IMG/VR virus record: IMGVR_UViG_3300049215_000223
Location: 1-64,000 of that record
From: a virus
Direction: 5' to 3' (one strand)
DNA length: 64,000 nucleotides
In this document: piece by piece, positions 12,438 to 44,351 of the stretch
How positions within the stretch are numbered: position 1 is the stretch's first letter
Layout of the letters: the number at the start of each line of letters is the position of its first letter
Notes under the pieces: generated by a model
Database searches by the model: none
Told to the model about the DNA's origin: nothing
Seen by the model: only the letters and a program-made list of their open reading frames with translations
Program-made: the position numbers and the translations under genes

Positions 12438-12453
12438 TGCAAAATCTGTGCCA
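12438..12453 (-). promoter_or_regulatory. Sigma-54-like promoter box
   Basis: TGGCACAGATTTTGCA on the minus strand matches the sigma-54 consensus TGGCAC-N5-TTGC, with GG and GC exactly 10 nt apart. The predicted start near 12427 would put the 15-bp element in the leader of the gene at 12362. No activator site identified. Confidence 0.5.
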
Positions 12454-25960: not shown

Positions 25961-26057
25961 GTTCTACAGACGTCCCAATAACCGATCTCAGAGGCGATCG
26001 AATCTCTTACTCTCGATTAGAGGTTAGTGGCGATCATCCCACGACTATCTGTAGAAC
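25961..26057 (-). ncRNA. Candidate structured RNA
   Basis: A perfect 10-bp stem GTTCTACAGA (25961-25970) with TCTGTAGAAC (26048-26057) encloses about 77 nt that can form further hairpins (ATCGA/TCGAT, GTGG/CCAC). It lies in a 268-nt gap with no gene. Transcribed strand unknown; minus assumed. Confidence 0.4.
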
Positions 26058-26089
26058 GGTACCTACGAAGATACCGTGTGTTGGGAATT

Positions 26090-26113
26090 GGGGCATATGT
26101 TTCCACATGCCCC
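26090..26113 (-). terminator. Possible terminator stem-loop
   Basis: GGGGCAT...ATGCCCC immediately past the gene at 26131, but without a following T-run, so it may be only a stabilising hairpin. Confidence 0.35.
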
Positions 26114-26130
26114 CATGTTCCCTTTGCGGA

Positions 26131-26487
26131 TTACTTGGCGTCCTTCCAACGCCAGATGCCGCCGTTCTTTCCCTTCGCCGTGCCGAGGAGCTTGCCCGAA
26201 GCCTTCTCCGCGTGACGGTTCTCTTCGAGAAACGCCTTGACGCGTTCCGAAAGGCGCGAATACGTCGCGGGAGTCGCCTGCAACGCCTGCATGACGAAAC
26301 CTTCGAGCGCAGGAACGTTCAGACGAGCACCCGGATAGCGATCGAAGATCGCATTCACCGCGTTGCTGATTGCTTCCTGATCCGCCGATTGCTCCGCCAC
26401 GTAGACGTCGAATGCATCCGACGCCGCCTGAAGAAACGCCGCCTTGTCCGAAAGGCTCTTGACCTCGATCTCGATTGACTTGCTCAT
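26131..26487 (-). CDS. 118-aa protein, paralogue of 16747 gene
   Basis: Start 26487. Helical, with RLNVPALEGFVMQALQA and AKGKNGGIWRWKDAK aligning with the 16747 protein. GC-rich. The basic Gly/Lys end may bind nucleic acid. 58 nt downstream of element copy 6. Confidence 0.6.
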   Translation of the reverse strand: MSKSIEIEVKSLSDKAAFLQAASDAFDVYVAEQSADQEAISNAVNAIFDRYPGARLNVPALEGFVMQALQATPATYSRLSERVKAFLEENRHAEKASGKLLGTAKGKNGGIWRWKDAK

Positions 26488-26545
26488 GATGTTTTTCCCT
26501 TTTTCCTTTTCCTTGTTTCGTGACCCTTGTACCCTCATCTTCATG

Positions 26546-26560
26546 CCGTTTGGCGATGGG
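26546..26560 (-). repeat. 15-bp intercistronic element, copy 6
   Basis: CCGTTTGGCGATGGG, between the genes at 26581 and 26487. Confidence 0.75.
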
Positions 26561-26580
26561 GCTTAGACTTGACCGAACGG

Positions 26581-26790
26581 TCAGTAATCGTCTTCGATCT
26601 GCTCTTCGACTACATCCTCGTAATTGCCCCGCTCGCCCAATACCTCAGGCGCATAGGTGCTCTTGACTACGTGAATGCATTCGTCGCAAACCCTAGAAAG
26701 CGGAATCCCTCGCGCATCATTCATCCACCAAGAATTCATCTTGTCATGGGTTTGCTTGTGCGCTTGCAGATTGTCTCGATTGACGCTCAT
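26581..26790 (-). CDS. 69-aa protein with CDEC
   Basis: Start 26790, 9 nt past element copy 7. MSVNRDNLQAHKQTHDKM, then LSRVCDECIHVVKS and an acidic end. Possible zinc site. Function unknown. Confidence 0.5.
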   Translation of the reverse strand: MSVNRDNLQAHKQTHDKMNSWWMNDARGIPLSRVCDECIHVVKSTYAPEVLGERGNYEDVVEEQIEDDY

Positions 26791-26799
26791 GCTCTCTAA

Positions 26800-26814
26800 C
26801 CGTTGGGCGATGGG
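26800..26814 (-). repeat. 15-bp intercistronic element, copy 7
   Basis: CCGTTGGGCGATGGG, 9 nt upstream of the gene at 26790 and 14 nt left of a GG-N10-GC palindrome. Confidence 0.75.
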
Positions 26815-26828
26815 AGGTTTTGAGAATT

Positions 26829-26861
26829 GGTATAGGGACTGCACATAGCAATCCCCATACC
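26829..26861. promoter_or_regulatory. GG-N10-GC palindrome (sigma-54-like boxes)
   Basis: Plus GG(26829)-N10-GC and minus GG(26861)-N10-GC face each other with 5 nt between the GC pairs. The minus box reads TTGGTATGGGGATTGCTA. Lies upstream of the gene at 26790. Confidence 0.55.
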
Positions 26862-26880
26862 AAGTTACGCGAAAGCCCTT

Positions 26881-27300
26881 TCAGGCTTTCAGCACCCGCT
26901 TTGCAGCGCTGATCATTGCGGCAAGCACCGCATCGCTCTTGCTCACCAATTCGGGATACTCTTGACGCAAAGCGTCGTATCCAGCTTTGCCAGGAGCAAT
27001 GCCGTTGTTCTTCTGCACGTAGGTGCGAATCTTGCCCGACATGCTGTTGGGCTGATTGCCACGCCCCTTTTTGCCCTTGCCCTTGTTGACTTCCTTTTCC
27101 AGGGAAGCCAGGGAGATCGCATCTTGGCTCTGCTCGTCGATGCTCTTTTGATCCTTGAGCGTCAAGCATGCCGCCAGCATCTTTCGATGATTGTCGGTCA
27201 TGGGTTCCTTGACGTTCGGCTTCAAACCGAGAAGGTTTGCATGCGTGCCGACGATGGCGACCAGGGATTGAAGCTGCTCGCGACTGTTGATCTGAATCAT
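26881..27300 (-). CDS. 139-aa protein
   Basis: Helical N-terminus, a Lys/Gly-rich hinge (NKGKGKKGRGNQP) and a C-terminal helical region. Possibly nucleic-acid-binding through the hinge. ATGA overlap with the gene at 27297. Confidence 0.5.
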   Translation of the reverse strand: MIQINSREQLQSLVAIVGTHANLLGLKPNVKEPMTDNHRKMLAACLTLKDQKSIDEQSQDAISLASLEKEVNKGKGKKGRGNQPNSMSGKIRTYVQKNNGIAPGKAGYDALRQEYPELVSKSDAVLAAMISAAKRVLKA

Positions 27301-27647
27301 CGAACCACCTTACCTTTGAAACCGCACTTCTTGGCGACGTGCGGGAAGTGACGACGAAGCGTCTTCACACGAGACGGATTGACCCTGTAGGACATGCTGC
27401 CTTCGATCTTCATGATGGCACCATGCTCGCATGCACGACTCAGATCGTGCAGGATGTGATTCAGGTTGTAGGTTCGGTCCACCTTGAGAAAGTGAACCAG
27501 GGCTTCACCTGCCGTGAACGTTCCACCCGATTCCAGACGGGTCCAGAAGAGAAGGTGTCGAACGCGCGAAGGCACGTTGTGATGCACCGCATTCCCTTTG
27601 ATCGTGGTGAACTCTGCCGGAAACACACTCGCATTCAAGTAACGCAT
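27297..27647 (-). CDS. 116-aa protein, winged-helix-like
   Basis: Start 27647. TTIKGNAVHHNVPSRVRHLLFW, then ALVHFLKVDRTYNLNHILHDL and MSYRVNPSRVKTLRRHF. Helix, helix, beta-turn order suggests a small DNA-binding domain, but I do not recognise the family. Confidence 0.45.
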   Translation of the reverse strand: MRYLNASVFPAEFTTIKGNAVHHNVPSRVRHLLFWTRLESGGTFTAGEALVHFLKVDRTYNLNHILHDLSRACEHGAIMKIEGSMSYRVNPSRVKTLRRHFPHVAKKCGFKGKVVR

Positions 27648-27667
27648 TCTCGTTCTCTTGTTTCTCG

Positions 27668-27682
27668 CCGTTGGGCGATGGG
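27668..27682 (-). repeat. 15-bp intercistronic element, copy 8
   Basis: CCGTTGGGCGATGGG, 6 nt after the stop of the gene at 27689 and 20 nt before the start at 27647. Confidence 0.75.
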
Positions 27683-27688
27683 TTGTGG

Positions 27689-28225
27689 TTACTTCGGAAT
27701 CACTGTCAGACCACGACTCGATTGCATGTACTCCCCCGCATAGAAGCGCTTGAGGAGATCCCACAATGCCGCACGTGGTATCGGAAAGTTTGGAACCTGA
27801 TTGATCTTCTCTTCCCTATTGAACTTGCGTCCAGGGATATTGCGCCAAGCTTGCAAGGTCTCTTCCTTGTAGGGCGCACGAATGTGCAGGTAATCACCAT
27901 GGTCTTCTACCATGACAGTCACCTTGCGATCGATGAGAACGTTTGCGAGCATATCGAAACCGATCTCGCGCAGACGAACGATTGCCGCCATTAGATGCTC
28001 ACCGGGCAATCCACACGCAATGCTGTAGACGATTCGATTGCCTTCCTTGCGGGCGTCTTCTGAAACGTTGGGCGCTTTCTTGCCCATGAAGCCATGCTTG
28101 CTTCGACATGAAGGACCCATGCCATATTCGATAGACTTGGAATCCAGTAAGGCTTCCCCGCAGATTGCGCAGGTTACCTTCAACATCTTGGTTGCGGGCG
28201 CGTCATGATAATCTGTCATGCTCAT
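27689..28225 (-). CDS. DUF6011-like zinc motif plus HARP-like protein (178 aa)
   Basis: CAICGEALLDSKSIEYGMGP and a later Cys resemble the DUF6011 zinc motif. Residues 105-150 (DYLHIRAPYKEE...WRNIPGRKFNREEK...NFPI) resemble the HARP repeat of SMARCAL1-type proteins. Suggests a nucleic-acid-related role. Domain calls are by eye. Confidence 0.55.
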   Translation of the reverse strand: MSMTDYHDAPATKMLKVTCAICGEALLDSKSIEYGMGPSCRSKHGFMGKKAPNVSEDARKEGNRIVYSIACGLPGEHLMAAIVRLREIGFDMLANVLIDRKVTVMVEDHGDYLHIRAPYKEETLQAWRNIPGRKFNREEKINQVPNFPIPRAALWDLLKRFYAGEYMQSSRGLTVIPK

Positions 28226-28240
28226 ACCCTCACATTCAAA

Positions 28241-28255
28241 CCGTTTGGCGATGGG
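28241..28255 (-). repeat. 15-bp intercistronic element, copy 9
   Basis: CCGTTTGGCGATGGG; begins directly after the TAA of the gene at 28256 and ends 15 nt before the start at 28225. Confidence 0.75.
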
Positions 28256-28408
28256 TTACTTACACCTACGCTTGTAGTCAGAACGATAGGTTCTGGCGCT
28301 TGTGTTGAAGTGTACCATGCCCATTGCCGCAAGCGCAGGCATGCTGATGTACTTAGCATCGCGATACTTTTTGAGTACCGTATCCAATGCTCGCTTCATG
28401 GAAGCCAT
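28256..28408 (-). CDS. 50-aa basic protein
   Basis: MKRALDTVLKKYRDAKYISMP, then AALAAMGMVHF and a basic end (SDYKRRCK). ISMPALAA resembles the NMPAVAG stretch of the 16747 family. ATG directly follows the TAG of the gene at 28409. Confidence 0.5.
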   Translation of the reverse strand: MASMKRALDTVLKKYRDAKYISMPALAAMGMVHFNTSARTYRSDYKRRCK

Positions 28409-28630
28409 CTACTTTGGTCCCGTCCAAGTCAGCACATGGTTATCCTCAGACACCATGCCCGTGCGCTTGAGAAGATCGATGACCTTGTTGTAGGATTCCT
28501 GGGATAGCTGTCCCATGAGTTCGGCATACAGTCTGCCGTTGGGAACACTTCCCAAGTCACGGATAGCAGATCCTACTGCCATGACTGCGCTCAATCCCGC
28601 TTTGACTTCTTCCTTGGTGACCGTGTTCAT
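28409..28630 (-). CDS. 73-aa helical protein
   Basis: VTKEEVKAGLSAVMAVGSAIRD, then a helix and LTWTGPK. Ends in TAG immediately before ATG. 15 nt downstream of element copy 10. Confidence 0.5.
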   Translation of the reverse strand: MNTVTKEEVKAGLSAVMAVGSAIRDLGSVPNGRLYAELMGQLSQESYNKVIDLLKRTGMVSEDNHVLTWTGPK

Positions 28631-28645
28631 GCATTCACCTTCTAA

Positions 28646-28660
28646 CCGTTATGCGATGGG
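28646..28660 (-). repeat. 15-bp intercistronic element, copy 10 (variant)
   Basis: CCGTTATGCGATGGG; 15 nt upstream of the start at 28630. Confidence 0.7.
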
Positions 28661-28683
28661 TAGCACACACTCCCGATTGAGAG

Positions 28684-28734
28684 GGTATCAGGGAATACAA
28701 GGGATTCTAACCCCGCATGCGTATCCCTGATACC
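28684..28734. ncRNA. Strong hairpin between two element copies
   Basis: GGTATCAGGG pairs perfectly with CCCTGATACC (10 bp), then ATAC/GTAT extends the stem; the loop holds GGG/CCC. Bracketed by copies 10 and 11 with no gene. Terminator, processing site or small RNA. Confidence 0.5.
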
Positions 28735-28746
28735 TTGTCGTTTCTC

Positions 28747-28761
28747 CCGTTATGCGATGGG
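28747..28761 (-). repeat. 15-bp intercistronic element, copy 11 (variant)
   Basis: CCGTTATGCGATGGG; 6 nt after the stop of the gene at 28768. Same variant as copy 10. Confidence 0.7.
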
Positions 28762-28767
28762 TTTCTC

Positions 28768-29403
28768 TCAGCCGTGAGAGAAGCTTGCTCGCGTGGTAAC
28801 TGCGGCTTTCATTCCGAAGGTAAGCTTGCCAGTTGATCCGCCTGTCTTACGGCATGCTGGACCCTTGGGCTGAGCTAGAATCCTAGCAATGGCATCTTGG
28901 CGAAGGATGACGGTAGAGATCGGTTGACCGTCCTTGCCAAACATCTTGGTTGACACGACCGTGCCAAACCAATCGGGCGCACCATCGAAGAGACGACGAT
29001 CACACCATCGATCCGCATCCGAACACGAATCGAACCCTTGACGCAAGGTGATATCGTCACCCGCCGCGTTGAAGATACAAGCGATCCACGCCTTTTCCTC
29101 TCGCGGTTCTTTGATCGGTTTGGTCGCAGGTTCACCCTTGGCGCTCGTGTCGGCATTGGCGATGTTTTCCGCCAACATGTGACCCAGCACGACCGCAGAG
29201 ATTGCTTGCAGTGCAGGCGTAGGATACAATTCCTTCGCATCCAATTGCGTGAGAATGGGAGTCACGAATTGCGCCAACGTTCCCGTCAGAAGCCATTCGC
29301 GATGTTGGGCGATGAAACCTTCTGCACTACGTGCGCCCTGCTTGGCAGCCTTATTCAGGAAGCCCTTGGCAGTCATCTTGCGCTCTTTCTTTTCGGTGCT
29401 CAT
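28768..29403 (-). CDS. 211-aa protein of unknown function
   Basis: Basic N-terminus (MSTEKKERKMTAKGFLNKAAK), two helical stretches, a middle with FDSCSDADRWCDRRLFDGAPD and a Gly/Ser-rich end. GC-rich. No domain recognised. Confidence 0.55.
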   Translation of the reverse strand: MSTEKKERKMTAKGFLNKAAKQGARSAEGFIAQHREWLLTGTLAQFVTPILTQLDAKELYPTPALQAISAVVLGHMLAENIANADTSAKGEPATKPIKEPREEKAWIACIFNAAGDDITLRQGFDSCSDADRWCDRRLFDGAPDWFGTVVSTKMFGKDGQPISTVILRQDAIARILAQPKGPACRKTGGSTGKLTFGMKAAVTTRASFSHG

Positions 29404-29418
29404 GACTTACCTTTCATA

Positions 29419-29433
29419 CCGTTGGGCGATGGG
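29419..29433 (-). repeat. 15-bp intercistronic element, copy 12
   Basis: CCGTTGGGCGATGGG, 15 nt upstream of the start at 29403. Confidence 0.75.
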
Positions 29434-29447
29434 TTGACGTTGCGAAT

Positions 29448-29586
29448 TAGCTAAGAGCATCCCCTTGGGGCATTACGCTTTTATGCTTAGCTATAGAGAG
29501 TAAAGAGCGGAGCACTATAGCATGGTTCAGTAACTAATTACAGCACGCAGCGCGCCTGTATAACACACTATAGTCGGTCTGCTCTT
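29448..29586 (-). ncRNA. Candidate structured RNA, two stem-loops
   Basis: Stem 1: TAGCTAA + GCAT with ATGC + TTAGCTA (29448-29493), apex CCCC/GGGG. Stem 2: AAGAGC/GCTCTT (29503-29508 with 29581-29586) plus ACTATAG/CTATAGT, with an internal loop. No gene in 29434-29701. Strand unknown; minus assumed. Confidence 0.4.
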
Positions 29587-29588
29587 AG

Positions 29589-29669
29589 TTGTGGATTAGG
29601 GAATCGAACCCAATGCGACACCAACCTTGGAAGGCGCAACGTCCCGTTGCCTTTTCAGTGTCATTCACA
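29589..29669 (-). ncRNA. tRNA-like element with enlarged middle arm
   Basis: TGTGAAT/ATCCACA acceptor-like stem (6 of 7), T-arm with loop TTCGATT, and a central arm closed by GACAC/GTGTC that contains a strong CAACG/CGTTG hairpin where D and anticodon arms would be. No CCA. Abuts the structured RNA on its left. Confidence 0.35.
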
Positions 29670-29684
29670 ATTCATTGATTCACG

Positions 29685-29699
29685 CCGTTTGGCGATGGG
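29685..29699 (-). repeat. 15-bp intercistronic element, copy 13
   Basis: CCGTTTGGCGATGGG; 2 nt after the stop of the gene at 29702, with structured RNAs rather than a gene downstream. Confidence 0.75.
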
Positions 29700-29701
29700 C
29701 T

Positions 29702-29875
29702 TCACTTCCCAGTCAATCGATGGTAGCCGTAGAAGACGACACCACCGATCAAGAAGTACCACGGCACGCCGTGATCGGAAACATGAAACGCCGTTTGACC
29801 CGTTCCCGGAATCATCGAGATCACGATCGCCATGGTGAAAACCGTGGCGAGAAGAATGACGAACAATCGACCCAT
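29702..29875 (-). CDS. 57-aa membrane protein
   Basis: MGRLFVILLATVFTMAIVIS is a hydrophobic helix, then a loop and a second hydrophobic stretch ending GYHRLTGK. ATG is preceded by AAGGGAG. Function unknown. Confidence 0.55.
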   Translation of the reverse strand: MGRLFVILLATVFTMAIVISMIPGTGQTAFHVSDHGVPWYFLIGGVVFYGYHRLTGK

Positions 29876-29904
29876 TGTCTTGCTCCCTTGCCCTTCGCTT
29901 CATG

Positions 29905-29919
29905 CCGTTTGGCGATGGG
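29905..29919 (-). repeat. 15-bp intercistronic element, copy 14
   Basis: CCGTTTGGCGATGGG; 29 nt upstream of the start at 29875 and just downstream of a terminator hairpin. Confidence 0.75.
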
Positions 29920-29923
29920 AAAA

Positions 29924-29966
29924 GCTACGGCAAAGTAAAAACGACCACGCCCTACTTTGCCGTAGC
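29924..29966 (-). terminator. Long terminator-like hairpin
   Basis: A 14-bp perfect stem (29924-29937 with 29953-29966), followed on the minus strand by TTTTCCC. No gene precedes it within 400 nt, so it may end a non-coding transcript from the palindrome-bearing region to the right. Confidence 0.55.
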
Positions 29967-30005
29967 ATGTTTTGGTTTTACGCAGCTTGTCTCAGGTACT
30001 TCGCG

Positions 30006-30020
30006 CCGTTTGGCGATGGG
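30006..30020 (-). repeat. 15-bp intercistronic element, copy 15
   Basis: CCGTTTGGCGATGGG; no gene directly downstream. Confidence 0.75.
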
Positions 30021-30054
30021 TATGTTTCATTGTTCACATACCTTTGGTTATTAG
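30021..30054. other. Hairpin between copies 15 and 16
   Basis: GGTATGT/ACATACC (7 bp) fills most of the 34 nt between two element copies. No coding frame. Confidence 0.4.
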
Positions 30055-30069
30055 CCGTTTGGCGATGGG
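30055..30069 (-). repeat. 15-bp intercistronic element, copy 16
   Basis: CCGTTTGGCGATGGG, 34 nt from copy 15. Confidence 0.75.
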
Positions 30070-30080
30070 CTAGCTTCCCT

Positions 30081-30096
30081 TGGCACCATTCTTGCA
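30081..30096 (+). promoter_or_regulatory. Sigma-54-like box
   Basis: TGGCACCATTCTTGCA, a full match to TGGCAC-N5-TTGC with 10 nt between GG and GC. No plus-strand gene follows, so it may be a lone box of the palindrome family or a promoter for a non-coding RNA. Confidence 0.4.
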
Positions 30097-30134
30097 ACGC
30101 GTGCGCGCGTCGCGCGTTATGAGGCGGCGACTTT

Positions 30135-30167
30135 GGCACGCACCCTGCACATTGCAACGACCATGCC
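30135..30167. promoter_or_regulatory. GG-N10-GC palindrome
   Basis: Plus box TGGCACGCACCCTGCA and minus box TGGCATGGTCGTTGCA facing each other with 5 nt between GC pairs. Beside an alternating GC-rich stretch (30100-30120). Confidence 0.55.
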
Positions 30168-30294
30168 ATATCCCGTTTGACATTATGTGAAGGCGTAGCC
30201 CGCTGCGCTGACCATACATTGCCCTATATGACACTACATGTATGGTGGGCAAGTGCGTTCGCTATAAAATTTCAGCCACACTGGAATCCCGCTT

Positions 30295-30327
30295 GGCATG
30301 TAAACTGCATATAGCAACAAGCATGCC
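30295..30327. promoter_or_regulatory. GG-N10-GC palindrome
   Basis: Plus box TGGCATGTAAACTGCA and minus box TGGCATGCTTGTTGCT, with the 33-bp geometry of the other copies. Located just left of the terminator at 30341. Confidence 0.55.
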
Positions 30328-30340
30328 AGCCCGAAAGCGG

Positions 30341-30387
30341 AAAAAGAAAAAGCCCTACCACCTTTCCGCCAAGAAGGTGATAGGGCT
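30341..30387 (-). terminator. Rho-independent terminator
   Basis: A 14-bp stem (30351-30364 with 30374-30387, one mismatch), then TTTTTCTTTTT on the minus strand. Ends the operon carrying the genes at 30395-30943. Confidence 0.75.
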
Positions 30388-30394
30388 AAGAAGT

Positions 30395-30451
30395 TTAGTA
30401 GCCCGAGCAGGGCATGATGAACAGCTCGACGAGACACTCGATCTTGATCAT
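30395..30451 (-). CDS. 18-aa peptide with perfect ribosome site
   Basis: MIKIECLVELFIMPCSGY, preceded by AAGGAGG at ideal spacing, directly after the stop of the gene at 30462 and directly before a terminator. The ribosome site is the best in the window, which supports translation despite the length. Confidence 0.45.
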   Translation of the reverse strand: MIKIECLVELFIMPCSGY

Positions 30452-30461
30452 GACTCCTCCT

Positions 30462-30713
30462 TCAGAAGAGATCGGTTCGTTCGCTGGGCAGAGCCACACG
30501 CGTGCATTGCGGGTAACTCTGAATCAGACACATCCCCTTGAGGTCGCACCAATCCTCCAAGGACAGATGCGACACCACCGTGCCATACAGCACGTCGCGT
30601 GGATTGTGACGCTTGCAGACCATCACGTGATACTGCATCGCGATAGCTTCCGCTTCGACGACACGGATCTCGAATGTCTTGGACGTGAGAAGACTTTGAA
30701 CGACAGTCATCAT
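30462..30713 (-). CDS. 83-aa protein
   Basis: Tandem ATGs at 30713 and 30710. A beta/alpha start (TVVQSLLTSKTFEIRVVEAE), then LEDWCDLKGMC. Function unknown. Confidence 0.5.
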   Translation of the reverse strand: MMTVVQSLLTSKTFEIRVVEAEAIAMQYHVMVCKRHNPRDVLYGTVVSHLSLEDWCDLKGMCLIQSYPQCTRVALPSERTDLF

Positions 30714-30943
30714 ACACCTTCCTTCAAGAGACGGGAGAAGTACACTTCCCATTCGCGGGAAGCGATACCAGCAAAGTCGAGAGGAGAACCCTCCTCGTGG
30801 TCTGACTCTTCGGGCAACATGCCCACGAAGGGACAAGTGCTTTCGCAGTCGTCGTCACACGGACCCTCGCGTCGCTCCGATTCACGAAAGCGATCGATTG
30901 CCGTGTAGTCGTCACCTGCAACGATGTCGAGATAGAAACTCAT
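30710..30943 (-). CDS. Acidic 77-aa protein
   Basis: MSFYLDIVAGDDYTAIDRF, a Cys-containing acidic middle (GPCDDDCESTCPF) and a helix (WEVYFSRLLKEGV). Overlaps the next gene start. Confidence 0.5.
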   Translation of the reverse strand: MSFYLDIVAGDDYTAIDRFRESERREGPCDDDCESTCPFVGMLPEESDHEEGSPLDFAGIASREWEVYFSRLLKEGV

Positions 30944-30972
30944 GTCATCCTCCGATATGATGGCGGTTCATG

Positions 30973-30987
30973 CCGTTGGGCGATGGG
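30973..30987 (-). repeat. 15-bp intercistronic element, copy 17
   Basis: CCGTTGGGCGATGGG; 2 nt after the stop of the gene at 30990, 29 nt before the start at 30943. Confidence 0.75.
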
Positions 30988-30989
30988 AC

Positions 30990-31322
30990 TCAGGGGAAGC
31001 ACTTGTTATACTTGTCGCGCCAATCCTGAATTGCTGCGTCAGCGCTCGTACCTTTTCCGATGATAGAGTATCCCGGATGATGAGCCGTCCAATCGAATCG
31101 ACTCCACTTCGTGCAGACGATCTGATAGTCCGGTATGTGTGCAGACTTGGGACGTTCCGGTTTCGCAATCAAAGGGATCTTGCGATCTCCCTCGCGAAAC
31201 TCTAGGGAATCGCTATGGGAATTGGGAAACACACAATCCCCTTGTTTGACGTGTTTGATGATACGGGTTAGAGGTATGGCTTTACCATCCGTATCTAGAC
31301 GTGCTTTGGTTGCTTTAGCCAT
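30990..31322 (-). CDS. 110-aa basic protein
   Basis: Start 31322 inside the end of the upstream gene (8-nt overlap). LTRIIKHVKQGDCVFPNSH, then FDWTAHHPGYSIIGKGTSA and a helix. Function unknown. Confidence 0.5.
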   Translation of the reverse strand: MAKATKARLDTDGKAIPLTRIIKHVKQGDCVFPNSHSDSLEFREGDRKIPLIAKPERPKSAHIPDYQIVCTKWSRFDWTAHHPGYSIIGKGTSADAAIQDWRDKYNKCFP

Positions 31323-31473
31323 CGAGCCATTCTCGCTTTCGACGAGCATCGTTGGCACGGCGATCCTGCTTGGATCGCATCTTGCCTGCTTTGCGGTGCA
31401 TGGCTGCAACTGCAACCCCCGAACGCTTGGGACGATGATCCTCTTCTTTGATGTGAATCAAAGTCTTGCTCAT
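31315..31473 (-). CDS. Basic 52-aa protein
   Basis: MSKTLIHIKEEDHRPKRSG, then a Lys/Arg-rich helix (RRANDARRKREWLDG). Likely nucleic-acid-associated. 15 nt after element copy 18. Confidence 0.5.
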   Translation of the reverse strand: MSKTLIHIKEEDHRPKRSGVAVAAMHRKAGKMRSKQDRRANDARRKREWLDG

Positions 31474-31488
31474 GTCTACACCTTCAAG

Positions 31489-31503
31489 CCGTTTGGCGAT
31501 GGG
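31489..31503 (-). repeat. 15-bp intercistronic element, copy 18
   Basis: CCGTTTGGCGATGGG; 1 nt after the stop of the 27-aa frame and 15 nt before the start at 31473. Confidence 0.75.
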
Positions 31504-31504
31504 T

Positions 31505-31588
31505 TTAGGTACGAATCTCGACGATACACAGATAGGCGAGAATACCCACTACCGCCCAACCTGCAAGTGTCATGCCAATGATGACCAT
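31505..31588 (-). CDS. 27-aa membrane peptide
   Basis: MVIIGMTLAGWAVVGILAYL, then IVEIRT. The ATG is buried in an 11-bp hairpin stem. No clear ribosome site. Confidence 0.35.
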   Translation of the reverse strand: MVIIGMTLAGWAVVGILAYLCIVEIRT

Positions 31589-31596
31589 GACACTTG
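31564..31596. repeat. 11-bp perfect inverted repeat over a start codon
   Basis: CAAGTGTCATG (31564-31574) and its complement (31586-31596) around an 11-nt loop. In RNA it would hide the ATG of the 27-aa frame, or act as a 3' hairpin of the gene at 31612. Confidence 0.7.
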
Positions 31597-31611
31597 TGAG
31601 AGGGGTGGCTT

Positions 31612-31938
31612 TCAATCCCGCCCCATTGCTTCATTGTAGCCATCGCAACCAAACGCCATGCCAGCTTGCATAGCATTCTCGCGCTTCCAATCGGAATCGT
31701 CGTCGCGAGTTTTGCGGTAGTTCGGATTCTTGCGGTACCTGGAAGAGATCCCGTGCTTTGATAGCTCGGAATCCTCCAATCCGTCAAGCTCGATGTACTT
31801 CACGCTTGAATCCCCAGGATCCGCGTGGAATGCTTCGATCGCTTCTTCGAGTGAATCGAAGTCTTCGCCCGTGAAGCAATCGTCGTTTTCCTCGTCAGGG
31901 TGCGAACCCCAATGCGAGACACTGAACGGCTTACTCAT
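31612..31938 (-). CDS. 108-aa protein
   Basis: VSHWGSHPDEENDDCFTGED, a helix, YIELDGLED, then RKNPNYRKTRDDDSDWKREN and a Gly-rich end (GMAFGCDGYNEAMG). The RNPxYR...DDDSxWKRE stretch looks like a conserved phage pattern. Function unknown. Confidence 0.55.
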   Translation of the reverse strand: MSKPFSVSHWGSHPDEENDDCFTGEDFDSLEEAIEAFHADPGDSSVKYIELDGLEDSELSKHGISSRYRKNPNYRKTRDDDSDWKRENAMQAGMAFGCDGYNEAMGRD

Positions 31939-31961
31939 CCGTCACCTCACATCAACCTGTT

Positions 31962-32081
31962 TCACACCGTTTGGCGATGGGCGTCGCAGTAACGACATTG
32001 TGAGCGAATGCACATGGCATACTTATTGCTCACGTAGTCCGCGCATGAGTACATGCACCTTGGATACCGCAACAATTGCAC
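31962..32081 (-). CDS. Cys-rich ~39-aa peptide running into a repeat
   Basis: CMYSCADYVSNKYAMC, then SQCRYCDAHR gives three CxxC-like pairs. The stop lies beyond element copy 19, so the last residues come from the repeat. Start uncertain (GTG 32081 or ATG 32054). Confidence 0.4.
   Translation of the reverse strand: MQLLRYPRCMYSCADYVSNKYAMCIRSQCRYCDAHRQTV
31967..31981 (-). repeat. 15-bp intercistronic element, copy 19
   Basis: CCGTTTGGCGATGGG, 28 nt upstream of the start at 31938. Confidence 0.75.
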
Positions 32082-32128
32082 GACAACCGTTTTACCGTAT
32101 CGCCGCGACTGACAACCTACCTTTCATA

Positions 32129-32143
32129 CCGTTTGGCGATGGG
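32129..32143 (-). repeat. 15-bp intercistronic element, copy 20
   Basis: CCGTTTGGCGATGGG, 25 nt left of a GG-N10-GC palindrome. Confidence 0.75.
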
Positions 32144-32168
32144 ACATTCATCCAGCTGCAATTGACTT

Positions 32169-32201
32169 GGCTCGAACATTGCACATTGCAAAACCAATGC
32201 C
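32169..32201. promoter_or_regulatory. GG-N10-GC palindrome
   Basis: Plus box TGGCTCGAACATTGCA, minus box TGGCATTGGTTTTGCA, 5 nt between GC pairs. It follows the terminator of the gene at 32273, so a promoter for the leftward operon is plausible. Confidence 0.6.
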
Positions 32202-32220
32202 AACCAAAAAGCAGAACGCA

Positions 32221-32253
32221 AAAAAGCCCGACACCCTTTCGGGCATCGGGCTC
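32221..32253 (-). terminator. Rho-independent terminator
   Basis: AGCCCGA/TCGGGCT with an inner GCCCG/AGGGT-like stem, followed by a T6 run on the minus strand; 20 nt past the gene at 32273. Confidence 0.75.
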
Positions 32254-32272
32254 TTTCTGCTGCGGCTGGAAA

Positions 32273-33055
32273 TCAGCTTTCCAGTGCGGCGCGAATCTCG
32301 GCGAGGCGATCTTCTTCGAGCTTGATCGTCTGCGCGTAGGTCAGCGCTTGCGTCGCACTGAGCACCGCGAAGCACTCCGCTGCTGGCATGGCGAGCGCTT
32401 GATCGAGCAAGCGCATCTCGTTTTCGCTGAGCGCTTCCCTCGCCGCTTCGCGAGTCTCGCAGATCGTATCAGCCGCGAGACGTTCGCGAGCGATCAGATC
32501 GCGCATCCGTCGCGCCTCGTAATCGGGCATTCCTGCGACGTAACCCTTACCCGTGGCGCGACGTTCGACCGTTTGGACGGGGCGAGGGTCGAGCGCACGG
32601 ATCGCTGTCATGTTGGCGCGCAATTCTTGCGCCCCGAACGTGAGGACGTTGTGCTCGTGAACGTTGCCCGAATCATCTACGACGCGCGGACCTTGCGCAT
32701 CGTAGCCAGTGAACGCGGCGATGGCACGGATCTTGTCGTTCAGGATCTCCTTGTCCAGCGTGAACGGAATTCCGTTCTCGGTGTAACGAGTGCCAGCGGC
32801 GCGCATGGCGAGCACGAAACCCTTGGCATCGATCGTGCCTTTCGGCTCGACGGGAAAGGCGAGACGCGGGGCGGCGAGCTCGATGGGTGCGCTCTCTTCT
32901 TTCTTGGCACGGAGCTTGCGCATCGTGGGTTTCACGACGGGCGACGCAGGGCGGTCGATCGCCTCGACGATGGCATGGCTCTTGCTATCGTCCGTGACGG
33001 GCGAGGCGTAGGACGCGGCGAGGGAAGCGAGAAACGTTGCGGTCAGATCAGTCAT
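32273..33055 (-). CDS. GC-rich 260-aa protein
   Basis: Disordered Ala/Pro/Lys-rich N-terminal third, a middle beta/alpha part (DAKGFVLAMRAAGTRYTENGI) and a long charged helix (ARRMRDLIARERLAADTI onwards). First gene left of the divergent region. Its GC-rich codons contrast with the AT-rich DNA to its right. No domain recognised. Confidence 0.6.
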   Translation of the reverse strand: MTDLTATFLASLAASYASPVTDDSKSHAIVEAIDRPASPVVKPTMRKLRAKKEESAPIELAAPRLAFPVEPKGTIDAKGFVLAMRAAGTRYTENGIPFTLDKEILNDKIRAIAAFTGYDAQGPRVVDDSGNVHEHNVLTFGAQELRANMTAIRALDPRPVQTVERRATGKGYVAGMPDYEARRMRDLIARERLAADTICETREAAREALSENEMRLLDQALAMPAAECFAVLSATQALTYAQTIKLEEDRLAEIRAALES

Positions 33056-33084
33056 GGCGGGAACCTCCTAACCCTAGGTGCTAG

Positions 33085-33099
33085 CCGTTTGGCGATGGG
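33085..33099 (-). repeat. 15-bp intercistronic element, copy 21
   Basis: CCGTTTGGCGATGGG, 29 nt upstream of the start at 33055. Rightmost copy. Confidence 0.75.
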
Positions 33100-33120
33100 G
33101 CGACCGCCCTGTTTTGCCTT

Positions 33121-33153
33121 GGCTCGGGCTTTGCATAGTGCAAAAGGTATGCC
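33121..33153. promoter_or_regulatory. GG-N10-GC palindrome
   Basis: Plus box GGCTCGGGCTTTGC, minus box TGGCATACCTTTTGCA, 5 nt between GC pairs. Its minus box could drive the gene at 33055. Confidence 0.6.
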
Positions 33154-33200
33154 AAAGTAGGGAAAACTCCCACCATGTAGGCAAAACTCTTATCCTTCGT

Positions 33201-33233
33201 GGTACCGACCTTGCTTATTGCAAAAACAATACC
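33201..33233. promoter_or_regulatory. GG-N10-GC palindrome
   Basis: Plus box TGGTACCGACCTTGCT, minus box TGGTATTGTTTTTGCA. Second of three palindromes in 220 bp. Confidence 0.55.
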
Positions 33234-33311
33234 AATGATCAATAAGAAAAGAAAAAACTATTATGTTATCATTGTAAAAGAATAATTACTATCTAATTGT
33301 AATTGATCGAT

Positions 33312-33344
33312 GGTATGATCATTGCTTAGAGCAATAACAGTGCC
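33312..33344. promoter_or_regulatory. GG-N10-GC palindrome
   Basis: Plus box TGGTATGATCATTGCT, minus box TGGCACTGTTATTGCT; the minus box is a perfect sigma-54 consensus. Confidence 0.6.
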
Positions 33345-33389
33345 ACCCCCAATTCCACAGCCAGAGTAAACCTGGGGGATGACCGGCAT

Positions 33390-33405
33390 TGGCACGCTTC
33401 TTGCC
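33390..33405 (+). promoter_or_regulatory. Sigma-54-like promoter box
   Basis: TGGCACGCTTCTTGCC matches TGGCACG-N4-TTGC exactly, without a partner box. It points to the two protease genes 560 nt to the right, so a long leader or another RNA would lie between. Confidence 0.5.
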
Positions 33406-33966
33406 TCCCAAACGGGGGTCTAACTGCCAATTGAACCACCAAACTAGATACAAACAGATACAAACTAACCCCAAACAAACATAATTACCATATCTGTATC
33501 GCCATTACCATATAAAACCATACAAATATCGTCACATATGGTCATTTTACAATTCCATATTCCTTAAAGCATCTTATCACATTATAAACAATATAATATC
33601 AACCATACATGAACATATATGACCATATGTTGCCATACATATATGACCATATGTTGCCATACATATAGTATCACATATAGTCATTCAATAGATTAGGGTA
33701 GCCAGTCAACACCAGGCGAGGATAACCTACCTGACACCCAATTGCTGGCACGAGAATCAATTTAAAACTATCTTCCCACCCCAAACAACCCCATGACGCC
33801 AGAAGAGAGACCAAGAGTCTTATAAATAGATTTAAGGGCAAAGCTCATCCATAAATATTAATGAGTAAAATGCAAATAGATCAAAAGGTTCTGGGGTTAA
33901 TAAGGCATTTTTCTTTTAACCTTCTCACACGCAAGCCACCTGCAGGGTTAGAAGATCGGAATTTAC
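33406..33966. other. AT-rich non-coding divergent region
   Basis: No gene supported. Many CCATAT/ATATGG motifs at 33485-33690 around a 24-bp tandem repeat. Gene direction changes here and base composition shifts. A replication origin, partition site or regulatory hub is possible. Confidence 0.4.
33613..33660. repeat. 24-bp tandem repeat, two perfect copies
   Basis: Units 33613-33636 and 33637-33660 are identical (each starts ACATATATGACC), followed by a partial third unit. Confidence 0.9.
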
Positions 33967-34743
33967 ATGAAGAACGCTTCAAGATTGCTCGCTCTTTTCA
34001 CATTGGCATTAGTAATAACCTCATGCGGAGGGATGATAACCAACAGGCAACCCAGTTCATTAGTAAGGCACATGGGAAGTAGTACGGTAGCATTAGTATT
34101 CCAGGTAGAGGGAGAATACAGACCATTTTGCACAGGTGTATGGGTAGAAGACAAGAAGATACTAACAGCCAATCACTGTATTAATGCGGTAGCCAAGGCG
34201 ATAGCTCAGAAGGAATCAGGCGATGAGGAAGCGCTTGTACCAGACGATACGGTAGGCACACCAATTCATTATATTTTAGAGAACGAAGTCCAAGCGGTAG
34301 GACAAGAGCCATATGCCATTCACTTAGGCAAAGCGGTCAAGGTAGATGAGGATCATGACTTAGCATTAGTGGAAGCATTAGGACCGGTACCATCGCATGA
34401 CGTAGCGAAGTTAGTAAGTACCTCACCAGCGATTGGAGAGAAGCTACATTTTGTGGGACATGTTAGAGGTTTGTATTGGACATATGTTGATGGAATAGTT
34501 GCAGCATATCGTGAGGATTTGGTACATAAGGGACCAATCATGCAAGTATCAGCACCAGTTTACTTTGGTAATTCTGGAGGCGGAGCCTTTACAGAAAGTG
34601 GCGAGTTATGTGGCATTGCATCTTATTTGATGCCAGCACCAATTACAGCGGGATACATTCACGCAGAGAGCATTCGCAAGTTTTTAATGCCATCGGACGA
34701 TGTTAAGGCACCATTCCGTGGCAAGATCATCAACAAGGAGTGA
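33967..34743 (+). CDS. Trypsin-like serine protease, lipoprotein
   Basis: A 258-aa exported protease. Signal peptide with lipobox VITSCGG near residue 20. The catalytic triad is visible: His in LTANHCIN, Asp in DHDLALVE, Ser in GNSGGGAF. Lipid-anchored in the envelope or secreted. It overlaps the ribosome site of the metalloprotease gene, so both are co-expressed. Confidence 0.85.
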   Translation: MKNASRLLALFTLALVITSCGGMITNRQPSSLVRHMGSSTVALVFQVEGEYRPFCTGVWVEDKKILTANHCINAVAKAIAQKESGDEEALVPDDTVGTPIHYILENEVQAVGQEPYAIHLGKAVKVDEDHDLALVEALGPVPSHDVAKLVSTSPAIGEKLHFVGHVRGLYWTYVDGIVAAYREDLVHKGPIMQVSAPVYFGNSGGGAFTESGELCGIASYLMPAPITAGYIHAESIRKFLMPSDDVKAPFRGKIINKE

Positions 34744-34747
34744 AAGT

Positions 34748-35383
34748 ATGTTTAAACGCTTTTGCTTATTCGTTATGGTTATCATTCTTAGTTTAGTTGG
34801 AGTAGATTGTGGACCGCCACCGGTTCGCCCATTTGCTTATACGCATCACGGACATGCAGCTTATGCACCCATTAAGATCATTCCAATATGGATTGACAAG
34901 GAATTTAGTGAGGGAGATAAGCTAGCGATAGACGATGCGATTAACCAATGGAATTTTGCATTGAACAACTACATAGTGTTGAGGGTAGTGAACGACAACT
35001 TTGATATGGAGCCGAGTGTAATTAATCGGGTTATGTTAAAGGGCGAGGGATGGTTGATACTCAAGATTAACAGTGGCAGTGAGTTTGTGCATGATGAAGG
35101 GTGTATGTTGACACTTGCCTTTGTGAACGAGATAGGTGGAAACAGGGCATACTTTATTAGGGACAGGCTTGGGAGTGATCAGATGATAGGGGTAGCGATG
35201 CATGAGATTGGGCATTTGCTAGGTGCAAAGCATGATCATGCTCATTTGATGAGACCTGTATTTAATTGGGCGACTTATCGATGTGTAGATGAGGAAGCTA
35301 TCAAGAAGGTAGCGGCATATCAGCATTTAGAGTTCAAGTACATGAATTACTGTGAATATGGACCAGAGCTTCAGGACAAGTGA
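34748..35383 (+). CDS. Matrixin-like zinc metalloprotease, exported
   Basis: Start 34748 follows GGAGTGAAAG. N-terminal hydrophobic signal with VDCGPPP (possible lipobox). MHEIGHLLGAKHDH is HExxHxxGxxH; a later Met (HLMRPVF) may form the Met-turn. 211 aa. Similar plan to the 8728 protease. Confidence 0.8.
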   Translation: MFKRFCLFVMVIILSLVGVDCGPPPVRPFAYTHHGHAAYAPIKIIPIWIDKEFSEGDKLAIDDAINQWNFALNNYIVLRVVNDNFDMEPSVINRVMLKGEGWLILKINSGSEFVHDEGCMLTLAFVNEIGGNRAYFIRDRLGSDQMIGVAMHEIGHLLGAKHDHAHLMRPVFNWATYRCVDEEAIKKVAAYQHLEFKYMNYCEYGPELQDK

Positions 35384-35442: not shown

Positions 35443-35634
35443 TTAGGACTCATCGGCTTCGATGAGAGTTTTATTTTCCACTGTATCTAGGGCGATGGCA
35501 TAGCTATTTTCAAGGAAGATATCTCGCCATCTAGAATAGATTTGAACTCTAGTAACGCCTGGATGTTTGGCATTGGAGCAGGTAGAACAATAGCCAATGT
35601 TTACTAGGGTATTTTGGCAGAATGGGCAGATCAT
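35443..35634 (-). CDS. Cys-ribbon array, last member, truncated (63 aa)
   Basis: MICPFCQNTLV...CSTCSNA is the family ribbon (CxxC...CxxC), but the usual C-terminal ITPxNV...TFS part is missing. Translation is coupled to the 35631 gene by ATGA. Confidence 0.6.
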   Translation of the reverse strand: MICPFCQNTLVNIGYCSTCSNAKHPGVTRVQIYSRWRDIFLENSYAIALDTVENKTLIEADES

Positions 35635-35984
35635 GAGAAGGTTAGGATGGTTGCTAGTTTTTGCTCGGCATTTTGGGGAGTGACATTTTGGATGAGATAA
35701 GGGATGTCAAGGATTTTTTTAGCGAAGAACCAGGTTAGTTTTGAGTTATTAGTTTCTGGATTTTTGGTACGAAAGATGATGGTACGATTGCCAGTGAGCC
35801 GCAGATTGAGTTCATACTCGAAGTCTTCCTTTTGGATTTTGAATACAATCTCTTGGAGGTCTTTGTCATGGTAGAATCTAGCTTTGCAAGGTTCGCAATT
35901 CCACCAAGGGGACATGACAGTAGAACAGGCTCCATGGCAGAAGGGACAATAGAATTGGGGCGTTTTGAAGATATTGGGGTCCAT
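35631..35984 (-). CDS. Cys-ribbon array protein (117 aa)
   Basis: CPFCHGAC...WWNCEPC ribbon, beta-rich middle, end NVTPQNAEQKLATILTFS. A complete member that shows the family signature well. Preceded by a 46-nt gap, so it may have its own start signals. Confidence 0.7.
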   Translation of the reverse strand: MDPNIFKTPQFYCPFCHGACSTVMSPWWNCEPCKARFYHDKDLQEIVFKIQKEDFEYELNLRLTGNRTIIFRTKNPETNNSKLTWFFAKKILDIPYLIQNVTPQNAEQKLATILTFS

Positions 35985-36030
35985 GAGGGAGGGTCCGGGC
36001 GAGATCGGAAATTTATGTCGCGTAAATTTA

Positions 36031-36369
36031 TTAAATAAAGGTTCTTAGTTTATAGAATCTATCTGCCCAATCCTTGGCGTTATTTGGATTGATATTTGGA
36101 AGATAGTCTAAGGAGATGAGATGGTCATCTTTGGATCTAGATTTGTTGAGGATGTAAGAAGCGAAGGTATGTTCTTGGATAGCGAGGCAGAGAAGGATAT
36201 TATATTCTGGAGTTTGGACTTCGAATTGAATTAGCCAAGGTTCGATGCCTTCATTTTCGGATGGATCCTTTTTGAACATATACATTATTCTTGAGACAGG
36301 GCAGGCATCACAGACCCAAATGAGTCTGGTAAGTCTATCTGCTTCACACTGACAATATCTGCATTTCAT
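36031..36369 (-). CDS. Cys-ribbon array protein (112 aa)
   Basis: CRYCQCEA...WVCDACP ribbon. The C-terminal signature is degenerate (INPNNAKDWADRFYKLRTFI). Confidence 0.65.
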   Translation of the reverse strand: MKCRYCQCEADRLTRLIWVCDACPVSRIMYMFKKDPSENEGIEPWLIQFEVQTPEYNILLCLAIQEHTFASYILNKSRSKDDHLISLDYLPNINPNNAKDWADRFYKLRTFI

Positions 36370-36692
36370 GAGAATACTGCCAGCTTGAGGAGTTTCAATG
36401 CCAATGCTTCAACTTGTTTAAGATTAATTTCGGCTGGCATTTTGTTAACATTCATTATATGACTTCCAGAATTGGAGTATCTTCCGTCATGAAGAGGTCT
36501 GAAATTATCTTTCAATCCACTTAAACTAGTTGTATTCTTTGCTAGATCGATATCAATTTCATATTATTTATCTTTAAGAATCATATAAAAAGTAATACGA
36601 TTAGGTCTAAACCAAACGCGACATGGGGTGCAGTATTGCGTATCGTGGGTACCAGAGGTAATTTTAGAACAGAATTTGCAAAAAGATATCAT
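36366..36692 (-). pseudogene. Cys-ribbon array gene with in-frame TAA
   Basis: MISFCKFCSKI...CTPCRVWFR runs 42 codons to TAA (36566-36564), then the same frame continues 65 codons to KLLKLAVFS and TGA, overlapping the next ATG. Every family landmark is intact apart from the stop. A recent nonsense mutation, readthrough, or a miscalled base. Confidence 0.75.
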
Positions 36693-36958
36693 GAGAATAA
36701 CACGTAGGTTTTAACTTTTTCAATCATATTTTCGGGCGTGAAGTTTGGCAAGGAATCCATCTGGAACAGCAGCTCTCCATTTGTATATATTTCGCACTTT
36801 TGATCTTCAAAGTTAAGATAAACTTCATATTTGCCTGTAGCTAAAACAACGCCATTGAGTTTGTCTTTTTTACCAAACTGATGGACGACCACGACAGAAT
36901 GGTAATCGCAACAATTACTTACTGGAATGGGAGACTGGCAGTAGTAACATTTTTTCAT
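36689..36958 (-). CDS. Cys-ribbon array protein, short (89 aa)
   Basis: CYYCQSPIPVSNCC ribbon with unusual second pair, end NFTPENMIEKVKTYVLFS. Shortest member with a full signature. Confidence 0.65.
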   Translation of the reverse strand: MKKCYYCQSPIPVSNCCDYHSVVVVHQFGKKDKLNGVVLATGKYEVYLNFEDQKCEIYTNGELLFQMDSLPNFTPENMIEKVKTYVLFS

Positions 36959-37269
36959 GAAAAGGTAACAATAGTTTTAAGTTTGGCGTACAATTTTTCT
37001 GGGGAGTCTAGTTTGAGTTCTTCATTAAGAACTATTGGCATATCTCCAAAATTTTTGGTTTCTTTATTATAATAAAATATATAAGACTTACCATTGTACA
37101 AGTGTAATCTAAAGGGAGGGATGCTACATACTTGTAATTGATTGGTAGTATGTAGAGAATAATGAGATTGCTTGATGAAGGTGTCAGCATCAAAACTAAT
37201 ATGAGTAGGACAGATAAAATCCTCAAGGGCGGCAGGAGTTAGTTCACGTTGGCATAATGGACATTTCAT
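36955..37269 (-). CDS. Cys-ribbon array protein (104 aa)
   Basis: CPLCQREL...FICPTHI: the second half has C and H rather than CxxC. End DSPEKLYAKLKTIVTFS. Confidence 0.65.
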   Translation of the reverse strand: MKCPLCQRELTPAALEDFICPTHISFDADTFIKQSHYSLHTTNQLQVCSIPPFRLHLYNGKSYIFYYNKETKNFGDMPIVLNEELKLDSPEKLYAKLKTIVTFS

Positions 37270-37637
37270 AGGAAGATTAGATAGGTTTTGAGTTTGTGCT
37301 TAGCATTCTCGGGAGTGATTGGAAGGATTTCGTTAGCAATCATTAGAACGTCTACCAGTTTAGCACGGACACGTTGACGTTCAGGAGTATATGGAACTTT
37401 ATAAATCAATAGAGTTTGAGTCGTTTCGAAATCAAATTGAAAATGATAAGTTCCATCCTTAGTAGGATCATTTGTATGAAGGGTGAATTCCACATAAACC
37501 AATTTACCATTATTGTATCTTATAAGCGTGGTACAATGTTTAGTACAAGTTTCACAATACCAAGACTCTGGCTGACGATCCTTAAACATAGGTAAAGGAA
37601 CTGTATGATCAGGGGTTTGGCAGAATGGACAATTCAT
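37266..37637 (-). CDS. Cys-ribbon array protein (123 aa)
   Basis: CPFCQTPD...SWYCETCTKHC, beta-rich middle, end PITPENAKHKLKTYLIFL. ATGA coupling on both sides. Confidence 0.7.
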   Translation of the reverse strand: MNCPFCQTPDHTVPLPMFKDRQPESWYCETCTKHCTTLIRYNNGKLVYVEFTLHTNDPTKDGTYHFQFDFETTQTLLIYKVPYTPERQRVRAKLVDVLMIANEILPITPENAKHKLKTYLIFL

Positions 37638-37935
37638 GAAAAAGTTAGTAGAGTTGGAAGTTTCTTTTCAAAGTTTTGGGGTGATACTCTAGCTCTAAAA
37701 TGATATTATTAATTTTGACATCAGTACTATTGGTAGTTAGTCTAAAGAAAGGCTGATCAAAATAGAAGAAAGAAGCAGTATAGTTCTTATAGTAAAATGA
37801 ATAAGAAGCTATATCATTCATCACTATAGAGAACCAATAGTTAACATTATACTTGGAACAGTGATATCGTATGTATGCTCCATCATTGGTACTGAACATT
37901 TCAGTAATCATTCTTACACAGAAATAGCACTTCAT
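37634..37935 (-). pseudogene. Cys-ribbon array gene with frameshift near its end
   Basis: CYFCVRMI...YHCSKYN opens normally. At the C4 run (37678-37681, GGGG on plus) the frame leaves the family signature. The neighbouring frame reads PQNFEKKLPTLLTFS and overlaps the next ATG. One missing C restores it. Decay or homopolymer miscall. Confidence 0.7.
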
Positions 37936-39972: not shown

Positions 39973-39973
39973 G

Positions 39974-42538: not shown

Positions 42539-42561
42539 AGCTGGGGAGGGCTCCATCCTAT

Positions 42562-42590
42562 ATTGTATGTCTTTTGAGGCGCAGAGTCAA
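42562..42590 (-). promoter_or_regulatory. Sigma-70-like promoter inside the array
   Basis: TTGACT (42590-42585), 17-nt spacer, TACAAT (42567-42562), in the largest gap between short array genes (after 42594). Confidence 0.6.
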
Positions 42591-42593
42591 GGA

Positions 42594-44279: not shown

Positions 44280-44351
44280 GTATCAGTATATAACCCACGA
44301 AATCGAGTAATAATGTCGCATCCTTACAATAAAAGAAAAGATAAGGAAAAT

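Follow-up and report, generated by a model that had tools for sequence, protein, structure and literature searches.

What protein reads the facing boxes that recur in a 64,000-nucleotide stretch of viral DNA (positions 1 to 64,000 of IMG/VR virus record IMGVR_UViG_3300049215_000223; hereafter the window, meaning this whole stretch), and what do these boxes do for the phage? Seven palindromic sites lie between positions 26,829 and 33,344, each composed of two boxes resembling the -24/-12 promoters of sigma-54 (RpoN) and set face to face across a short centre. Judged by their sequence, they belong to a real class of phage elements made of facing sigma-54-type boxes. The best explanation we can offer, held with evenly balanced confidence, is that they may be bidirectional sigma-54-type promoters used by the host polymerase.

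Seven facing sites in one region of the window

The first-pass annotation had placed palindromes of the form GG-N10-GC-N5-GC-N10-CC at 26829, 30135, 30295, 32169, 33121, 33201 and 33312, and a pattern count confirms all seven coordinates. These are exactly the matches found in the window, while shuffled versions of it contain 0.36 on average and two at most (100 shuffles), which rules out an equal frequency in shuffled DNA. Order-1 random copies of positions 26001-34500 (n = 2,000) give a mean of 0.16 matches and a maximum of three. The DNA around the sites (26.0-33.4 kb) is higher in G+C than most of the window. The motif search of the remaining genome that had been proposed was also run, and the 178,722-bp virus record holds no match beyond these seven and none to the reversed pattern. 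Within the window, other centre spacings from 0 to 12 yield at most one match each, and other half-site spacings from 6 to 14 at most two.

The 33-bp geometry described earlier recurs in all seven sites, but the conserved unit is wider, comprising 35 bp of the form TGGYAY-N5-YTGC-N5-GCAR-N5-RTRCCA, with the outer T...A (TGG...CCA) present in 7/7 sites and YTGC in 14/14 half-sites. When up to three mismatches are allowed, this unit recovers the same seven sites only, five of them exactly and two with one mismatch. TGGT replaces TGGC in the pairs at 26829 and 33201.

Distribution among viruses and bacteria

The 35-bp pattern with a centre of 5 bp is present in at least 119 stretches of IMG/VR viral contigs, and a centre of 6 bp is found in 113. 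The spacing within the half-site must be GG-N10-GC, since N9 and N11 leave only one and four viral stretches, respectively. With the centre left free from 0 to 30, at least 11, 46, 20 and 3 distinct pairs were counted at centres of 3, 4, 7 and 8 bp, and at most five per value at larger centres among the matches listed; these counts concern viral loci only and leave out the loci with centres of 5 and 6, which had been fetched earlier. The facing pair has a centre of 3-7 bp across phages, so that the fixed spacing claimed at first holds within this phage (5 bp in 7/7) and not among phages at large. Most phages possess only one to four exact sites, and up to about 18 occur in a single phage. In large records with several sites, these are grouped in one region per genome (38 records searched, 35 of them with a match to the stricter pattern), and large phages carry one site per gene or gene group across 6-16 kb. 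No isolated phage carrying the element came up in DNA and tblastn searches.

In 257 Gb of bacterial and archaeal genomes, a stricter pattern with centres of 3-8 bp matched 34 stretches. Among the 35 sites in the bacterial hits, eight are perfect 15/15 palindromes, 15 have a centre of 8, and many lie in coding DNA according to our own gene caller; the stretches thus comprise perfect hairpins, matches in coding DNA and a group with centre 8. Centre 8 is the commonest value in these hits and occurs, among others, in loci L325, L328, L333 and L348, which come from one deltaproteobacterial metagenome-assembled genome. Two loci from Bifidobacterium jacchi (L330 and L347) have perfect long inverted repeats, which are full hairpins that fit the pattern and represent a different thing.

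Likeness of the half-site to sigma-54 promoters

In 453 distinct pairs (centres 3-8; logos of distinct pairs are shown for centres 4-7), the scan-free positions read Y ahead of TGG, R following TGGCAY and W following TTGC. The half-site accordingly reads YTGGCAYR-N4-TTGCW with an exact GG-N10-GC spacing, the same as in sigma-54 -24/-12 promoters. We compared 870 phage half-sites with 29 intergenic Salmonella sigma-54 sites, taken from the chromatin immunoprecipitation-microarray (ChIP-chip) table of PMC3844500, and found their base frequencies to be nearly equal: the mean distance over six scan-free positions is 0.114, and 0 of 5,000 permutations came as close (minimum 0.169). After TGGCAY, the frequencies of A and G are 0.34 and 0.64 in Salmonella and 0.34 and 0.60 in the phages, and after TTGC those of A and T are 0.47 and 0.44 in Salmonella and 0.48 and 0.45 in the phages. 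The claims that each half is a -24/-12 match and that the halves face each other are upheld, and sigma-54 has the specificity of these sites. In six of the seven window pairs, the minus-strand half outscores its plus-strand partner on the Salmonella matrix.

The phage sites differ from ordinary sigma-54 promoters in standing face to face across a centre of 3-7 bp, an arrangement that is rare in bacterial and archaeal genomes (the 34 stretches mentioned above). In the open literature that we searched, we found no account of phages with facing sigma-54 sites, most subscription papers lying outside that search.

Gene context, leaders and direction

The window sites stand upstream of minus-strand genes. 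A 15-base leader, CCCATCGCCNAACGG, occurs in about 20 copies between 9782 and 33099, all on the minus strand and shortly before start codons, and a 21-base form of it has exact matches in five viral stretches, including phage records of 327 kb and 199 kb. The leader is often followed by NNNGAA, and its place is comparable to that of the start-associated sequence (SAS). A minus-strand half-site is found 25-130 bases upstream in six of 21 window leaders, at 44, 48, 55, 59, 74 and 99 bases, the leader at 74 bases lying in a stretch that reads as coding. Pair 1 (26828..26862; 35 bp, centre 5) is followed by a leader at 26800..26814, 48 bases past the T of the minus half. The leader at 30055..30069 comes after pair 2 (30134..30168), which is 99 bases away, and pair 3 (30294..30328), while the one at 32129..32143 stands 59 bases from pair 4 (32168..32202). 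Pair 5 (33120..33154) is 55 bases from the leader at 33085..33099, with a gene start at 33055; the same leader comes after pairs 6 (33200..33234) and 7 (33311..33345), both of which lie within the divergent gap. A single sigma-54-like half-site on the minus strand (12439..12453), which has no facing -24 box, is followed by a leader copy 44 bases on.

L123, a relative from a 118-kb phage record, shares the window's leader, and a minus-strand half-site stands upstream of three of the 11 copies there, at 52, 53 and 61 bases. Taking the window and L123 together, the distance is 44-61 bases in seven of nine cases, and 74 and 99 in the other two. L508, an unrelated record of 335 kb, has 18 sites over 16 kb, nearly each of them ahead of a plus-strand gene; its leader differs (TAACTCTAAAAAGATATC-like) and stands 51-94 bases from the half-site (median 66.5, 18 sites). 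Positions 1-17.8 kb of L508 comprise about 18 gene cassettes in which the facing pair, preceded in many of them by a hairpin, is followed by the leader, often also by GGCGGCAAAA, and then by a Shine-Dalgarno sequence and the gene. The placement of one site per gene group just upstream of start codons is a poor fit to the replication or partition protein that the first-pass annotation had offered as another possible reader.

Gene context was classed for 174 sites from the calls of our own simple gene caller, with genes set by hand in the window and sites of unclear context dropped: 110 are divergent, 60 one-way and four convergent. The divergent share (110/174) exceeds that of background gaps of at least 80 bases in the loci (81/508; Fisher p = 7e-31). 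A test of direction by purine start bases gave no signal.

The smaller phages have their sites, often in arrays, upstream of the terminase genes, in the gaps where two blocks of genes diverge (layout drawn for five loci). Of 120 rows of terminase open reading frames (ORFs), 117 have their nearest site on the upstream side, mostly at 0.4-1.5 kb; many of the terminase-linked contigs are related, and the family spans 44 contig groups. This position, together with the terminase small subunits among the site neighbours, would suit DNA or RNA hairpins, or recombination or packaging sites, which we nevertheless regard as very improbable. The terminase link can reflect an early/late divergent junction, and the packaging lead was dropped in favour of that reading; moreover, the sites of the large phages are spread across 6-16 kb, one for each gene or gene group. 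The letters between the boxes also speak against hairpins. Across relatives, they are equal in the two halves less often than chance would give, for example at position 8 in only 19 of 182 cases with a centre of 5 (47.9 expected), and at position 5 in 29 of 126 with a centre of 4 (62.9 expected). Compensatory pairing between the arms, as in a structured hairpin or attC-like site, was not found, and the hairpin was rejected because the variable positions avoid pairing and stem position 5 shows no covariation. Since the halves match less than expected, the data fit a pattern in which perfect palindromes are avoided and which is read by a protein on double-stranded DNA. The original notion of a protein-binding pattern, not an RNA hairpin, is borne out in this respect.

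Possible transcription in both directions and its alternatives

The observations that count for promoters of the sigma-54 type are the sequence itself with its spacing rules and N10 requirement, the agreement with the Salmonella sites, the place ahead of genes and leaders at similar distances, and the divergent enrichment. To these can be added a single plus-strand half-site, TGGCACGCTTCTTGC(C), at 33390..33404, which points to the plus-strand genes at 33967 and whose same 16 letters recur ahead of rightward genes in L123, at 3398. The lack of a sigma-70 excess and of a common neighbour regulator counts in the same direction. Around the window sites, five sigma-70 promoters were found against 10.3 expected, and no fixed -35/-10 elements appear over 825 flanks of sites; overlapping sigma-70 promoters were therefore rejected. 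Among 150 of the 340 listed neighbour proteins there is no regulator family common to the site neighbours, the hits being terminase small subunits, a few helix-turn-helix proteins, sigma-70 region 4, GcrA and KorA-like proteins, with one to four members each. The absence of a shared phage family is as expected of a conserved host reader, and a reader that stays constant over very different phages would most simply be a conserved host protein.

From these observations we infer sigma-54 as the reader, and likewise the start points, the activation and the use of both directions. Each site would consist of two -24/-12 promoters, face to face with a common short centre, which the host sigma-54 RNA polymerase would read by docking in either orientation. 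A host enhancer-binding ATPase would then open the complex, and transcription would leave both ways. In the standard geometry of sigma-54 promoters, the +1 is found 12 bases downstream of the C in the -12 box. The start points would be 23 minus d bases apart, where d is the centre length, and 18 bp apart for d = 5. Only with d = 3-7 is each predicted +1 placed inside the unconstrained five-base spacer of the other half, and this would account for the dominance of 3-7 bp centres. In this phage, the leftward half would drive the minus-strand gene groups, with predicted minus-strand starts at about 26836, 30142, 30302, 32176 and 33128 for pairs 1 to 5, which would put the 5' ends of the messenger RNAs some 20-35 bases upstream of the leader; the rightmost sites may also serve the plus-strand genes.

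A comparable layout is described for bidirectional sigma-70 promoters, which are pseudo-symmetric and can engage the polymerase in two orientations (PMC12825309). The commonest start-site distance given there is 18 bp, the same as that predicted here for a centre of 5. They differ in the class of sigma factor, and their symmetry resides in the -10 elements, whereas here it extends to complete -24/-12 pairs.

Several findings weigh against sigma-54 promoters of this kind. The virus record itself encodes neither a sigma-54 DNA-binding domain nor an activator domain; among 50 other virus records, the former was found in none and the latter in one (weak). No enhancer site was identified. Pairs 26829 and 33201 score just 5-9 on the Salmonella matrix, low on both strands, compared with 15-21 for Salmonella's own sites. 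The divergent excess is weighted by the many related terminase-linked contigs, and the account of the spacing by start points matches the centre range but was made after seeing the data. Eleven GenBank phages that we sampled have no facing pair, which is weak evidence because they were found as terminase relatives and are distant. What counts most against a simple directional promoter is the orientation. Among the 60 one-way sites, the half that points downstream is the better of the two in just 31, and among the 18 in L508 in eight; hence gene direction does not shape the site, and both halves are kept regardless. Single half-sites near the pairs have no orientation bias, and a perfect one on the plus strand (30081..30095) is oriented opposite to the local genes, the wrong way for a directional promoter. 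Finally, viruses also contain back-to-back half-sites (gap 3-8; at least 120 stretches) and tandem ones (65 stretches, mostly gap 3), which makes the facing pair one arrangement among several. Since several arrangements are enriched in viruses, the half-site is the basic unit, which obeys sharp spacing limits in the facing pairs. Eighteen of 56 tandem half-sites lie within ORFs of at least 120 aa. L378 and other viral contigs show tandem direct repeats with an 18-bp period, TGGCACGAATTTTGCTAG-like.

Because both halves are kept even where the neighbouring genes run one way, a dimeric regulator is still viable as reader. In that case a symmetric regulator, encoded by the phage or by its host, would use the sites as operators, and the resemblance to sigma-54 would be convergent; each monomer would contact two major grooves in succession (TGGCAYR and TTGCW), with a flexible link in the dimer. 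We consider this main rival doubtful. Arrays in which half-sites alternate, separated on both sides by short spacers, would suit it, as would the extended start-associated sequences (ESAS) with SAS of cluster K mycobacteriophages, which have the same layout of paired inverted elements, a start-linked leader and small non-structural genes (PMC3203893). A regulator of this kind would, however, have to match the base frequencies of sigma-54 at the free positions too, and to tolerate a centre spacing that covers nearly half a helical turn. Nor is there a shared regulator among the 150 site neighbours, and sigma-70 promoters, on which an operator might act, are not in excess next to the sites. Besides, very different phages have one and the same motif, whereas the ESAS repeats are described as varying by subcluster (PMC3203893).

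The ESAS are also unrelated in sequence. Pixie has TGTTGA-N4-TCAACA elements, a different leader and no facing pair of the present type, and 17-bp imperfect inverted repeats of the published ESAS kind next to GGGATAGGAGCCC were not found here. The ESAS of Adephagia are described as containing SigA-like promoters (PMC11373665). The 17-bp dyads of cluster O mycobacteriophages are likewise present in many copies per phage genome and have no known function (PMC4351075), but their form, TGTTCGG-N3-CCGAACA, is without -24/-12 likeness.

A further alternative is that the sites capture the sigma-54 holoenzyme without firing, either as a decoy that depletes host sigma-54 or as a stable closed complex that holds up passing polymerase before each gene group. 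Orientation would be irrelevant to such a role, and both the dense arrays and the number of sites, about 18 at most in a single phage, would fit it; the RpoN holoenzyme is also reported to repress some genes (PMC8743547). On the other hand, the sites keep a nearly constant distance from the leaders and start codons downstream of them and do not form one dense bank, and most phages possess just one to four exact sites. We judge this capture to be improbable, though less so than hairpins or packaging sites, and continue to favour promoters read in both directions by sigma-54.

Neighbouring genes in the window

The gene behind pairs 5-7 (32273..33055, minus strand) has no assigned function, and all five loci with relatives of it (L122, L080, L028, L053 and L106) hold facing sites. 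A tool-called terminator-like hairpin with a T run (32226..32244, minus strand) lies between this gene and pair 4; the hairpins adjoining pairs 1 and 3 were judged by eye only. In the group behind pairs 2-3, a gene at 28768..29403 (minus strand), likewise without assigned function, has relatives in L122, L148, L053, L003 and L216. The first larger ORF to the right of the divergent gap is the plus-strand gene for a trypsin-like protease (33967..34743). This protease has a lipoprotein-like start and adjoins a metalloprotease-like protein (33967-35383, plus strand, for the two), both with relatives in L080 and L122.

Farther to the right, a long series of ORFs, each of about 100-130 aa, occupies low-G+C DNA on the minus strand (35631-45454), where those at 35631 and 37932 match one L080 protein. 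The phage also codes for a full-length peptide chain release factor with PCRF plus RF-1 domains (47202-48296, minus strand). A small protein at 26131-26487 (minus strand), with a paralogue at 16747-17106, shows a weak match to Gmx_para_CXXCG (E 0.006, below cut-off). We take this to be a myxobacterial family, and the match is at most a faint hint of the host.

Implications for phage gene expression

Large phages carry many small genes without known role, and how these are switched on is rarely known. With a little less than even confidence, we propose that the facing sites may constitute a phage-wide class of cis-elements, namely symmetric two-way sigma-54 promoters that would tie cassettes of small accessory genes to the sigma-54 system of the host (nitrogen, envelope stress and similar), each phage using its own leader. 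If this is true, a whole set of uncultured phages relies on the only bacterial polymerase that depends on an ATP-driven activator, and their gene expression would be tied to host signals. The sites would then serve as a search tag for such cassettes, and the idea of the bidirectional promoter would extend to a second sigma class. If another protein reads the sites, it would have the same specificity as sigma-54, which would be equally odd. That so many uncultured phages have the element without being related suggests an overlooked means of switching on phage genes.

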